A stretch of 64,000 nucleotides of DNA. Source: Serinicoccus marinus DSM 15273 (lineage in GTDB: Bacteria > Actinomycetota > Actinomycetes > Actinomycetales > Dermatophilaceae). The DNA is taken from positions 744,001 to 808,000 of the forward strand of contig NZ_CP043808.1 in assembly GCF_008386315.1 (NCBI RefSeq), read 5' to 3'. The first letter of the stretch is position 1, and every line of letters begins with the position of its first letter. Shown here one piece after another: positions 1 through 64,000 of this stretch. The notes beneath the pieces were generated by a model that was given only the letters and a program-made list of their open reading frames with translations, had not been told where the DNA came from and ran no database searches. The position numbers and the translations under genes are program-made.

Positions 1-209
1 TCGAGCGCGGCAAGGAGCTCGCCGCCGGGATGGCGGCCGAGGACGAGATCCTGCTGCCGCCGCGCGACGTGGAGGGCACGGAGAAGAAGGAGGCCAAGCA
101 GGCCGAGGTGGTCCGCGAGGCGCGGGAGACGCGCATGCAGGCCGCCGCGGACCTCGAGGCCGCGGGGGAGGAGCCCGGGCTGGAGGGTCGCGAACCCTCG
201 CGGCGTTGA
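1..209 (+). CDS. C-terminal end of an unknown protein (partial)
   Basis: This reading frame is open from the window edge and stops at TGA 207-209. About 68 residues are visible. They are rich in Glu, Lys, Arg and Ala with a predicted helical character (for example EKKEAKQAEVVREARETRMQ) and end in REPSRR. No catalytic motif or membrane segment is present. The codon pattern, with G or C in third positions, agrees with real coding sequence. I do not recognise the family; the start lies outside the window. The next gene is tRNA-His, so this is the last gene of its own unit. Confidence 0.6.
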   Translation, partial: ERGKELAAGMAAEDEILLPPRDVEGTEKKEAKQAEVVREARETRMQAAADLEAAGEEPGLEGREPSRR

Positions 210-270
210 GCCGTCCCCGCGACCACGCTTCTGATGACCGCCGCGTTTCTCGGGCACACCCCGGAGGCGC

Positions 271-276
271 TACGAT
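271..276 (+). promoter_or_regulatory. -10 element (TACGAT) of the tRNA-His gene
   Basis: TACGAT lies about 37 nt before the mature tRNA 5' end. It has the same form as the -10 hexamers seen 6-8 nt before many start codons in this window (CACGAT, CACAAT, TAGGAT). Initiation would be near 283, giving a short 5' leader for RNase P to remove. No strong -35 is visible. Confidence 0.45.
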
Positions 277-312
277 GGTCGGCGTTGCCCGGGCTCGCCC
301 GCAGGCAGCATG

Positions 313-385
313 GTGGGCGTAGCTCAGCAGGTAGAGCATCGCGTTGTGGTCGCGAGGGTCGCGGGTTCAAACCCCGTCGCTCACC
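313..385 (+). tRNA. tRNA-His (anticodon GTG)
   Basis: A full cloverleaf can be drawn. The acceptor stem pairs 313-319 (GTGGGCG) with 378-384 (CGCTCAC), the D-arm is GCTCAGCAGGTAGAGC, the anticodon is GTG, and the T-arm has GGTTCAAACCC. The base at 312 is G and the discriminator at 385 is C, so the -1 G that histidyl-tRNA synthetase needs is encoded opposite C73. That is the hallmark of bacterial tRNA-His. CCA is not encoded. Confidence 0.97.
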
Positions 386-61191: not shown

Positions 61192-61193
61192 GG

Positions 61194-62557
61194 CTACACC
61201 CCCGCCCCGCGCCGCCGGTGCGACAACTCGCGCAGCACGACGTCCAGGCTGCCGGGGCCCAGCCACGGCACGACCGCCACGCCCTGGCGCCTGATCGCCC
61301 GGATCTCCCGCTCCCGCTCCAGCATCCGGATCCGCCAGGCGGTGCGGGCGAGCGGGTCGCGGTCGGCGCTCGGGACCACACCCGCGCCGCCCTCGACCAG
61401 CGCGTCCACCACGACGACCGACAGGCCGCGGGCGGCCAGCGTCGCGGCCTGGGTGAGCGCGTCGGGCGAGACGAGGGCCGAGATCATGACGACGAGCGTG
61501 CCCGAGCCCACCCCGAGGTGGACCCTGCGCGGGTCGGTCTCGTCGTCCACGGCCGGCTGGATCCGGCTCAGGGTGTCCAGGATGCGCACACCGTGCCGCC
61601 GGCCCGTTCCCACCGGGACCGTGAGCGGGGTGCGGGCGGACAGCACCCGCAGGCTCACCCGGTCGCCCTGCTGCAGGAAGTGCTCGCCGACGGCGGCCGC
61701 GGCACGAACCGAGCGGTCCAGCGAGCTGGGCGTGCCCGTCAGCCCACCGGAACGGCCGAGGTCGTAGTGCGCGTCCACGAGCACGGCCACGTGGGTGTCC
61801 TGGTCGGCGTAGCTCGAGGTCACGTGCAGCTCCCCGGTGCGGCTGGACCGCGGCCAGTGGATGCGGCGCAGTCGGTCGCCCACCTGGAAGGGCCGGATCG
61901 TGGCGAACTCGCTGCCGTCGCCCGGGCGGGTGGAACGGTGCATCCCGACCAGGCCGCGAGGGTGCGGCGCCGGGGCCGAGGTGTCGAAGGCGGCGGGCTG
62001 GGGCAGCACCCGCAGGCCCTGGGCCCCGACCGAGATCGGCCCCCAGCGGTAGGACCCCCAGGCGCTGCTGGCCGCCACCTGCATGGGCCCGATCCGGCGC
62101 ACGCCCCACCGGGTGACCCGCAGCCCGACGAGCAGCCGTCGCCGGCCCTGCACGAGCGACCCCTCGGCGTCGACGACGGTGGCCGTGCGCTGGACCGGGA
62201 GGTCGTCGCTGTCCAACGCCGCGCGCATCCGCTCCTGGGCCACGGCCTCCACGAAGGGGCGGGGGTCAACGCCGCGCACAGGACGTGGGCGCCCTCGACC
62301 GGCTCGAGGTCGGCGACCGCCAGCGCCTGGTCGCCCTCGCGCACCTGAGCGTGCGACAGGGCGAAGCGGTGGTCCGGCCGGTCGGCGGGGCGCGTCGCCA
62401 GGCTCCAGGCGAGGACGACCACGAGCGGGCTGAGCAGCACGAGCAGGTCCGGGCGGCGCCACAGCAGCGCCACCGGGGCGACCAGCAGCACGGCCACGAG
62501 GCAGCGGGCGAAGGCGTGCGTCGGGCGCCAGGCGTCGGCCCGCTCGGTGAGCGACAT
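61194..62557 (-). CDS. DUF58 domain protein of a MoxR operon, with a one-base frame break
   Basis: About 454 residues. Two N-terminal helices (residues 16-52, CLVAVLLVAPVALLWRRPDL) are followed by a beta domain (VGLRVTRWGVRRIGPMQVAA) and the DUF58 signature: GSEFATIRPFQVGDRLRRIH, WPRSSRTGELHV and the vWA-like VAVLVDAHYDLGRSGG. The frame breaks at five G on the plus strand, 62261-62265: the first part ends VLCAALTP, the second starts with RPFVEAVAQERM. A sixth base restores it. MoxR/DUF58 systems are thought to mature membrane or secreted complexes. The start ATG shares a base with the moxR stop. Confidence 0.85.
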
Positions 62558-63606
62558 CAGGCCTGCGTGCCGACGTCGCCGTCGCCGTGGCTGGGTCCGG
62601 TGCCGTCGTCCACGGTGGAGGCCCCGGTGCGAGAGCCGGGGACCGGCACCTGGCCCAGCGCGGCGGTCACGACGGCGGCGCCTCCGGTGTCCGACATCCA
62701 CAGCTCGGGCTTGATCGAGATGCGGTGGTCCAGCACCGCGTGCGCGACCGCCTTGACGTCCTCCGGGGTGAGGTAGTCGCGGCCGCGGATGACGGCATAC
62801 GCCCGCGCGGTGAGCATGAGCGCGAGCGAGCCGCGGGGAGAGGCCCCGACGAGGACGGCACGGTGCCGGCGCGTCGCCGAGGCCAGCTCGACGCAGTAGC
62901 GGGAGATGTCGTCCTCGACCGGGACGCGCTCGATCGCCTCCTGCATCGCGGCCAGCCCGGCGGCGTCCGTGACCGGCTCCAGCCGCTGGTCCTCGGTCTG
63001 CCGAGAGACGCGACGGCGCAGCACGTCCCACTCCTCCTCGGGCGAGGGGTAGCCGAAGGAGACCCGGGCCAGGAAGCGGTCGAGCTGGGCCTCGGGGAGC
63101 GGGTAGGTGCCCTCGTACTCCACCGGGTTGGCGGTGGCGAGGACGTGGAACGGCTGCGGCAGCGCGAAGGTCTGGCCCTCGACGGTGACCTGGTGCTCCT
63201 GCATCGCCTCGAGCAGCGCCGACTGGGTCTTGGGCGGGGTGCGGTTGATCTCGTCGGCGAGCAGCAGCCCGGTGAACAACGGACCCGGGCGGAAGGCGAA
63301 CTCGGCGGCCTTCTGGTCGAAGACGAAGGACCCGGTGAGGTCCGAGGGCAGCAGGTCGGGGGTGAACTGCGCGCGGGTGAACTCCAGCCCGAGGGTCTGC
63401 GCGAAGGAGCGCGCGGCGAGGGTCTTGCCGAGCCCGGGGAAGTCCTCCAGCAGGACGTGGCCCCGGGACAGGATCGCGGTGAGCACCATGGTCAGCGCCT
63501 CGCGCTTGCCGACGACCGCCTGCTCGACCCGGTCGAGCACCTCGCCGGCGCGGCGCGAGACCTCCTCGGTGGTCAGGGTGGGTGTCTCGGTGCTGGTCTG
63601 GCTCAC
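62557..63606 (-). CDS. MoxR-family AAA+ ATPase
   Basis: A 349-residue AAA_3 ATPase with Walker A EDFPGLGKTLAARSFA, Walker B GLLLADEINRTPPKTQSALL, sensor 1 LATANPVEYEGTYPLPEAQL (typical of MoxR) and the C-terminal lid GASPRGSLALMLTARAYAVI. It acts as a chaperone-like ATPase with the DUF58 protein. The GTG start overlaps the upstream membrane protein stop (GTGA). Confidence 0.95.
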   Translation of the reverse strand: MSQTSTETPTLTTEEVSRRAGEVLDRVEQAVVGKREALTMVLTAILSRGHVLLEDFPGLGKTLAARSFAQTLGLEFTRAQFTPDLLPSDLTGSFVFDQKAAEFAFRPGPLFTGLLLADEINRTPPKTQSALLEAMQEHQVTVEGQTFALPQPFHVLATANPVEYEGTYPLPEAQLDRFLARVSFGYPSPEEEWDVLRRRVSRQTEDQRLEPVTDAAGLAAMQEAIERVPVEDDISRYCVELASATRRHRAVLVGASPRGSLALMLTARAYAVIRGRDYLTPEDVKAVAHAVLDHRISIKPELWMSDTGGAAVVTAALGQVPVPGSRTGASTVDDGTGPSHGDGDVGTQA

Positions 63607-64000
63607 AGCTGCTCGACTCCTTCGATCGCGGTGTGCAGGGCGCTCTTGCTGCGCTTGCGCCTGTCGGTGGGCGGGCGGGTCAGGTAGTTCCACAGGTGGG
63701 GGTCGAGCACCGCCCGCGCCCGCTCGGGCTCGGTCTCCAGGTCGACGTCGTGGTGCGCCAGCAGCCGCTCGGCGGCCAGCTCCCGGACGACCGGGTAGAT
63801 GTGGTCGCCCCGGTCGTCCCGCTCGAGCGCGTCCCGCAGGTCGCGCCGCAGCCGCAGGAGGCGGTAGTCCATGGCGTCCGGCGGCGCCGACTCCTGCCGT
63901 GGCGTCGACACCCAGTAGGCCTGCTCGACGTCGCGGGTGGTGCTCGTCGCGCCCCACAGCGCCAGGCCGAGGACGAGGCCGGCGAGGACCACGGCGAGGA
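63603..64000 (-). CDS. Membrane-anchored protein upstream of moxR (5' end outside the window)
   Basis: At least 130 residues are visible, continuing beyond the window edge. A hydrophobic helix (VLAGLVLGLALWGATS) precedes a charged helical region (MDYRLLRLRRDLRDALERDD, RAVLDPHLWNYLTRP) ending KSALHTAIEGVEQL. It is coupled to moxR by a GTGA overlap. In many actinobacteria a DUF4129/DUF4350-like or similar protein sits here, but no motif allows naming it. GTG at 63992 could be its start, in which case it would be complete. Confidence 0.7.
   Translation of the reverse strand, partial: LAVVLAGLVLGLALWGATSTTRDVEQAYWVSTPRQESAPPDAMDYRLLRLRRDLRDALERDDRGDHIYPVVRELAAERLLAHHDVDLETEPERARAVLDPHLWNYLTRPPTDRRKRSKSALHTAIEGVEQL

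Follow-up and report, generated by a model that had tools for sequence, protein, structure and literature searches.

The 64,000-nucleotide stretch of Serinicoccus marinus DSM 15273 analysed here (the window) covers positions 744001-808000 of a chromosome assembled in one contig of 3,420,275 bp. Scattered through its predicted genes and intergenic gaps are 40 exact copies of the octamer GGTATGCC/GGCATACC, 20 per strand (Table 1), in agreement with the approximately 20 copies in each orientation reported in the initial annotation. The occurrence of the word in genes of both strands, in gaps and at a start codon, also described there, is borne out by these copies, with some coordinates corrected by a few bases (19415 to 19412, 27466 to 27457, 34441 to 34439, 39432 to 39430 and 6477 to 6476). 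Since the genes were predicted with a simple purpose-written script, their borders are approximate. One protein of the window finds its nearest named matches, at 87-88%, in S. chungangensis and S. kebangsaanensis.

Table 1. Exact copies of GGTATGCC in the window
Position	Strand	Location
437..444	+	intergenic
4612..4619	+	gene 4065-5768, R-Y-A frame
5003..5010	-	gene 4065-5768, Q-A-Y-R frame
6476..6483	-	gene 5768-7411, G-I-P frame (ATA)
7461..7468	+	predicted intergenic; ATG of the word is the first of open frame 7464-8696, not a predicted gene
9928..9935	+	intergenic
10134..10141	-	gene 10000-10863
12229..12236	+	gene 11175-13046, G-Y-A frame
13047..13054	-	intergenic
14174..14181	-	gene 13178-17119, W-Y-A frame
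19412..19419	+	overlaps predicted start codon at 19415
19646..19653	-	gene 19415-20128, G-I-P frame
20922..20929	+	gene 20907-22385, G-H-T frame
22372..22379	+	gene 20907-22385, G-I-P frame
22967..22974	-	gene 22382-23170, G-Y-A frame
23569..23576	+	intergenic
24400..24407	-	gene 23767-24492, G-I-P frame
24840..24847	-	gene 24585-25145, W-Y-A frame
25187..25194	-	gene 25142-25741, G-Y-A frame
27159..27166	-	intergenic
27457..27464	+	gene 27175-28494, G-M-P frame
28737..28744	+	gene 28579-29277
28970..28977	+	gene 28579-29277, G-I-P frame
30358..30365	+	gene 30156-30620, G-I-P frame
30989..30996	-	gene 30796-32394, G-M-P frame
34439..34446	-	gene 33872-34921, G-I-P frame
36682..36689	-	gene 35074-37251, G-Y-A frame
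39430..39437	-	gene 38360-40480
39717..39724	+	gene 38360-40480, G-Y-A frame
41329..41336	+	gene 41066-41914
41610..41617	-	gene 41066-41914, G-M-P frame
47234..47241	+	intergenic
49022..49029	+	gene 48860-49888, G-M-P frame
53656..53663	+	left arm of inverted pair in terminator-like hairpin
53684..53691	-	right arm of inverted pair with 53656..53663
54512..54519	+	gene 54302-55234, R-H-T frame
55411..55418	-	intergenic
55776..55783	+	gene 55445-56050, R-Y-A frame
56803..56810	-	intergenic
60820..60827	-	gene 60649-61191, R-Y-A frame

The word statistics are based on stretches totalling 853 kb (window included) and on pattern counts over whole genomes. In 100 dinucleotide shuffles of the window GGTATGCC was found 0.66 times on average and twice at most, as compared to the 40 observed copies. 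The chromosome holds 887 + 896 = 1,783 copies, the density here being about 0.5 per kb, and only 7 + 4 = 11 copies of the reversed word serving as control, which confirms the initially claimed excess far above chance. A synonymous null model, in which all predicted proteins and the codon usage per gene were kept and intergenic DNA was resampled by a first-order Markov chain, gave an expectation of 3.4 copies for the window (maximum 9 in 200 shuffles) and of 19.75 copies for 464 kb (maximum 27 in 60 shuffles), where 264 were observed. Of these 264 copies 195 lie in coding sequence, 60 between genes and 9 at gene edges. The coding copies are spread over all six frames, the coding strand bearing 100 of them and the opposite strand 95.

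The initial annotation had named an excess arising simply from dipeptide or codon-pair usage as a result that would refute its claim. Codon-pair effects indeed inflate some GC-rich octamers approximately twofold in such genomes. However, the excess of GGTATGCC stands against the synonymous shuffles, the word is found in all frames as well as between genes, and the same residues keep their normal codons elsewhere, so that this explanation is refuted and retains next to no probability.

The octamer itself is the conserved unit, its flanks showing little preference except for a mild one for G directly after it. Its first G is partly replaceable, with TGTATGCC, AGTATGCC and CGTATGCC occurring 22x, 13x and 5x over the order-2 expectation, and so is its sixth base (GGTATACC, 8x); the enrichment of one-base variants sharing a core had thus been seen correctly, the three former variants having GTATGCC in common. 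Among the words one transition away, GGTACGCC is depleted (8 versus 29 expected, 0.27x), its single occurrence in the window lying at 44679 as stated initially, and so is GGCATGCC (4 places; both-strand count 8 versus 45 expected, 0.18x). Such depletion would result from a conversion of near-misses into the word. The normal level of GGTGTGCC, likewise one transition from the word (32 versus 34, 0.94x), speaks against that simple view.

Within genes the word overrides codon preference. In the 672 predicted genes the context GG-TAY-GCC contains 116 TAT and 6 TAC codons, all other contexts together 317 and 3387. GGC-ATA-CC accounts for 49 of the 99 ATA codons. The override claimed for every frame is therefore clear for Tyr and for ATA and weaker in the His frame (GG-CAY-ACC with CAT 41 : CAC 21, versus 254 : 4716 elsewhere) and in the Ala frame (G-GCN-TACC with GCA 58 : GCC 55, versus 1040 : 15043). 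The sites at which CTACGCC was said to keep the usual codons (3857, 23350 and 23406) lie at 3858, 23351 and 23405, each at most one base off, and CTATGCC is present twice too.

The persistence of the copies was followed by aligning the window with stretches from 17 relatives of the same genus, octamers of identical strong/weak (S/W) base pattern serving as retention controls. The word is kept at 28 of 34 aligned places in G117 (87.8% identity; controls 44/100, p=1e-4) and at 23 of 34 in G118 (84.5% identity; controls 32/92, p=1e-3). Six more relatives (81-83% identity) show the same lean with p values of 0.027 to 0.3. Sites are thus held for a time and then turn over; most of the nine relatives at 77-81% identity are word-rich despite few common sites. 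At discordant places the partners differ by one to five bases, transversions included. The word has thus arisen along many different paths, in keeping with a signal under selection or drive.

This also bears on the mutational origin proposed as one of two explanations in the initial annotation, namely C-to-T change at methylated GTACGCC, to which GCATGCC can be added as an alternative site. Consistent with it, GGTACGCC and GGCATGCC are depleted and GGTGTGCC is not, and at gap-free discordant places GGTACGCC is the partner in 3/14 (G109), 3/12 (G108) and 2/9 (G125) cases. In the two closest relatives, however, GGTACGCC accounts for merely 1/13 (G117) and 2/15 (G118) partners, so that the predecessors are not mostly GGTACGCC as a deamination hotspot would leave them, and the proposed check of orthologous GTACGCC-to-GTATGCC change does not support it as the main cause. 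These tallies were made by eye and the sites recur between relatives, so they are not independent; changes from GGTACGCC to the word do occur, with a higher share in somewhat farther relatives, and most partners differ otherwise, frequently by at least two changes. Furthermore, the 264 copies outnumber the entire expected pool of GGTANGCC (about 66), the closest relatives retain the word sites above controls, and other relatives enrich CGAAGGGG or, against the prediction of a decay model, GTACGCCG itself (nine family genomes). Deamination is thus refuted as the main cause and highly improbable overall. The other initial explanation, a selected DNA-level signal, is supported, uptake being the best fit among the examples named for it.

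With a threshold of 100 copies and 8x the reversed control (counts copied by hand), GGTATGCC is enriched in 90 of 186 genomes of the family, belonging to 27 genera, its orientations summing up to 39,097 and 38,955. In G114, which belongs to the same genus as the source of the window, it is nearly absent (38 copies). Outside the family none of 273 genomes reached the threshold by eye, the highest total being 136 (G286).

To detect other words in genomes poor in the motif, an excess over the synonymous null was required in several frames as well as in intergenic DNA. In calibrations shuffled sequence reached a best z score of 3.7 in three sets, and codon-pair effects in other actinomycetes reached z 15 at a mere twofold excess; therefore fold excess, frames and intergenic share were used instead of z alone. 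Two words emerged from 40 kb each, GGATGCCG in G178 (44 versus 6.7 expected) and GTACGCCG in G090 (26 versus 3.9). G084 showed GTACGGCG (66 versus 21 in 120 kb) and, genome-wide, GTACGCCG (1,463 versus 114). G084 and G085, members of one genus, carry different words. Based on ratios worked out by hand for the family, GGATGCCG is at least 8x its control in 7 of the 186 genomes (G017, G018, G034-G037, G178) and GTACGCCG in 9 (G002, G003, G013-G015, G084, G088-G090). None of the nine GTACGCCG genomes belongs to the 90 rich in GGTATGCC, and three of the seven GGATGCCG genomes do, all in genus g15. There G036 and G037 hold 523 and 508 GGTATGCC together with 2195 and 2099 GGATGCCG, a two-word state that likely represents a transition.

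Without GGTATGCC, GGATGCCG or GTACGCCG at threshold are 83 of the 186 family genomes, 19 of them in genera g27 and g36. All five genomes sampled from these two genera (four from g27, one from g36) contain CGAAGGGG, with 34-69 copies per 80-120 kb as compared to 6.8-15.8 in the synonymous null and 1-6 reversed copies. Since Janibacter anophelis holds 11 CGAAGGGG in 13.5 kb and no reversed copy, g27 is probably Janibacter. Beyond the family, in an order sample of 297 genomes drawn evenly from the larger group, CGGATGCCG is at least 8x its control (ratios again by hand) in 16 of the 22 genomes belonging to family f19; inspection by eye showed no such genome among the 275 others. Family f19 is taken as Microbacteriaceae because six of ten named loci of that family (four Microbacterium, Agromyces, Glaciibacter) carry 8-15 CGGATGCCG per 22 kb; among the other four, a metagenome-assembled genome (MAG) contributes 3 copies in 12.6 kb, and the word is lacking from M. 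nanhaiense and two further MAGs. These counts are given per locus, because pooling named loci would add up orthologous stretches from related species, which are not independent.

No clear word was found in genus g46, probably Phycicoccus (three genomes sampled, 120 + 40 + 40 kb), where the genome-wide excess is mild (up to 5.7x for GTACGCCG and 4.3x for GGATGCCG). The search likewise gave nothing convincing in G184, G041, G083, G038, G011, G160 and G158 (40 kb each) and G153 (120 kb). As G041 nevertheless has 137 GGTATGCC versus 14 reversed copies genome-wide, a sparse word can escape a 40-kb sample. A weak GTAGCGGC was seen in G114 (17 versus 3.3). The words GTATGCCG, GGATGCCG and GTACGCCG differ mutually at one or two places; any relationship of GCGAAGGGG with them is no more than a guess. 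In a 12.6-kb locus of Nocardioides daeguensis (L098) 13 GTACGCCG and 9 GTACGGCG were counted versus 0 and 1 reversed; this one small locus, unflagged by the multi-frame test (best z 2.7), gives only a hint of a dialect. The contigs L032 and L096 bear the titles Acidobacteria and Spirochaetaceae bacterium, which are probably wrong; they code for close actinomycete relatives of a protein of the window, and five copies of GGTATGCC are present in L032.

A tie to a DNA methyltransferase or defence system, by which the word would be kept through methylation or escape, seems quite unlikely. Restriction usually causes avoidance of a word and not its excess, and several base positions change between dialects. 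A precedent is the highly iterated palindrome 1 (HIP1, GCGATCGC) of cyanobacteria, a massively iterated octamer of debated cause that is linked to methyltransferases (PMC4390886). HIP1 is a palindrome, whereas GGTATGCC differs from its own reverse complement and varies as dialects.

The proteins at the start of the contig were recognised by eye as DnaA and DnaN, and the origin was therefore placed near base 1. With the origin at dnaA and the terminus set at mid-contig, the 853 kb contain 217 leading and 216 lagging copies. The check for strand bias between origin and terminus suggested by the initial annotation hence revealed none, and a polar skew toward the terminus as in FtsK-guide or other origin-terminus signals is absent, which leaves polar segregation signals unsupported. 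The spacing of the copies is slightly more even than random (coefficient of variation of gaps 0.92; gaps <200 bp 9% versus 12% expected).

Low GC served as no more than a proxy for acquired DNA. The 30 low-GC bins of 5 kb contain on average 1.2 copies as compared to 2.8 in the other 139 bins (p=9e-7). This scarcity runs opposite to composition, since a word with three A/T should gain there. Seven consecutive 5-kb bins at 2.705-2.740 Mb (L214 and L025) have zero copies and end at an integrase; judged by eye from translated starts, the part at 2.72-2.74 Mb (L025) encodes several transposase-like proteins, a probable metal P-type ATPase and ordinary genes too. Four integrase-flanking stretches (L213, L216, L219, L220) have near-normal word density.

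Two further explanations can be weighed on this distribution. The word could be the binding site of a chromosome-organising protein acting in nucleoid compaction, segregation or replication control, in line with its slightly even scatter and its independence of the transcription strand. Without strand polarity of the FtsK-guide type, with its scarcity in low-GC DNA, its fast change between close genera and its near absence in G114, such a role appears unlikely. It could also be a Chi-like recombination hotspot, one orientation of which would be read by a RecBCD-like helicase-nuclease in double-strand break repair. Like Chi sites it is short, non-palindromic and over-represented genome-wide, it is retained at orthologous sites of the closest relatives, and Chi words differ between bacterial groups. 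However, a leading-strand skew is typical of known Chi words, whose excess is usually a few fold, in contrast to the even distribution of GGTATGCC over both replication strands and its more than 100-fold excess over the reversed word. Taking furthermore into account that the words vary within one family and even within genera, which is fast for a core repair enzyme, we regard a Chi function as rather improbable.

At 53640-53710 of the window a long inverted repeat containing an inverted GGTATGCC pair is followed by TTTT (-54 kcal/mol, z -9.8). It is a terminator-like hairpin of a kind known from uptake sequence pairs. Six GGTATGCC pairs less than 80 bp apart were found in 464 kb, five of them inverted, and only the pair at 53656/53684 forms a strong hairpin. 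The four other inverted pairs gave folds little better than those of shuffled sequence (z -0.9 to -1.4), so the initial statement that the word sits inside hairpins holds for one pair only. A terminator role was accordingly rejected as a general cause.

The genome encodes a ComEA protein with HHH_3 and SLBB domains next to ComEC, as well as three Tad clusters, one of them with a DUF4244 Flp pilin. In Micrococcus luteus, another actinobacterium, the tad genes and ComEC are needed for natural transformation and a ComEA gene exists (PMC4322843). The terms uptake sequence and uptake signal occur neither in that paper nor in PMC8467076. The third Tad cluster (L225, G000:C1 ~2,194,700-2,207,800) is split by a low-GC stretch with an ISL3 transposase; this stretch sits between TadE/Tad-like genes and a TadA-like gene matching only positions 4-158 of the 370 of the ATPase family.

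Based on its abundance, symmetry, turnover and dialects, GGTATGCC is probably a DNA uptake sequence, and we file it as working like one, with putative membership, in what would be an uptake-sequence system of high-GC Gram-positives. Uptake as the driving force, the receptor reading the word and the machine to which this receptor would belong are what we infer. A surface receptor of the competence machinery would prefer GGTATGCC when binding free DNA and would most likely be part of a Tad/Flp pilus that feeds ComEA and ComEC. Word-rich conspecific DNA would then be imported more frequently and enter the chromosome by recombination, alleles that gained the word by chance would be copied preferentially, and the word would build up where protein coding and regulation permit until mutation and constraint balance. 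A shift in receptor specificity would let a genome drift to a new word and so give rise to the dialects of sister genera.

Several observations weigh against an uptake sequence. Gene content does not discriminate: ComEC is present in 180 and the DUF4244 Flp pilin in 172 of the 186 family genomes, and in genus g46, which has no clear word, they are found in 12/12 and 11/12 genomes. As both are near-universal, they do not track the word, and they were rejected as discriminating genes because they are common to genomes without a clear word. The Tad-1 loci of 21 genomes (Flp detected via a simple pattern in 19) did not single out a receptor, no co-variation statistic having been computed. Among the nine relatives at 77-81% identity 15 of 85 window copies are common, as compared to 13 expected from identity to the eighth power. 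The depletion in low-GC DNA would also be expected from any slow build-up of a word in old DNA. In-gene orientation is unbiased (165/145 in 853 kb, p=0.28), and no clear preference for gene ends was detected, where van Passel (PMC2346458) reported a gene-end bias for uptake sequences. Finally, a single tight inverted pair forms a strong hairpin, unlike in Haemophilus, whose terminators are often inverted pairs of the uptake word (PMC5217627).

A further interpretation, which we hold with slightly less confidence and still favour, is that the Actinomycetales represent a third independent origin of uptake-sequence-guided transformation, in Gram-positives, with genus-level words (GGTATGCC, CGGATGCCG, CGTACGCCG and GCGAAGGGG) that would be read by a Tad/Flp-pilus machine and would have been switched repeatedly. 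One loose register (n-A-n-G-S-S-G) may underlie these four words as its dialects and reflect a single receptor lineage common to the family of the window and the Microbacteriaceae.

The DNA uptake sequence (DUS) of the Neisseriaceae (GCCGTCTGAA and dialects) is bound by ComP, a minor pilin. It resembles GGTATGCC as a scattered word with thousands of copies and species dialects; the dialects of the Neisseriaceae have a common core and track lineages (PMC3630211). A further likeness is the absence of any known general orientation bias (PMC2346458). For the DUS an atypical distribution in mobile elements has been described (PMC7371117). In contrast to the DUS, the host here is a high-GC Gram-positive actinomycete, the word and its core differ, and the genome shows filament genes of the Tad/Flp type. 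The uptake signal sequence (USS) of the Pasteurellaceae (AAGTGCGGT and a variant) also forms two dialects in one family (PMC12616744). With 1,783 copies GGTATGCC reaches an excess comparable to that of known uptake sequences, the USS of H. influenzae having about 1,300 to 1,471 copies (PMC5217627, PMC1939737). It differs from the USS in lacking a flanking A/T-rich extension, in the rarity of terminator pairs and in its Gram-positive host.

According to PMC12616744, self-DNA selection of this type is known only in Neisseriaceae and Pasteurellaceae, and no earlier report of these words or of actinobacterial uptake sequences was among the matches listed in the open-licence literature, preprints excluded. 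If the uptake reading is true, self-recognition in transformation would have evolved anew in high-GC Gram-positives via a different pilus, and such passwords could act as genetic barriers between genera. Co-variation across the several dialect changes would make it possible to find the receptor, the long dispute between uptake-bias drift and selection for sex would become testable in a new lineage, and a practical handle for transforming these bacteria would be at hand.

Other repeats were encountered in the compared genomes. Eleven Nonomuraea loci (L076, L084, L087-L089, L091, L092, L094, L095, L099, L101), being orthologous stretches and not independent, contain 54 CGTACGGC where 14 are expected, spread over several frames, as well as 7 intergenic sites with CTCTAGAG. 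Five likewise orthologous and not independent Phycicoccus loci (L034, L035, L037, L039, L077) hold 16 copies of GAATCGAT (expected 0.3), 12 of them intergenic. In 120 kb of G053 (L189-L194) ten intergenic TGCCCGGGCA palindromes and 11 AACTGCCCGG elements form a separate dispersed intergenic repeat.

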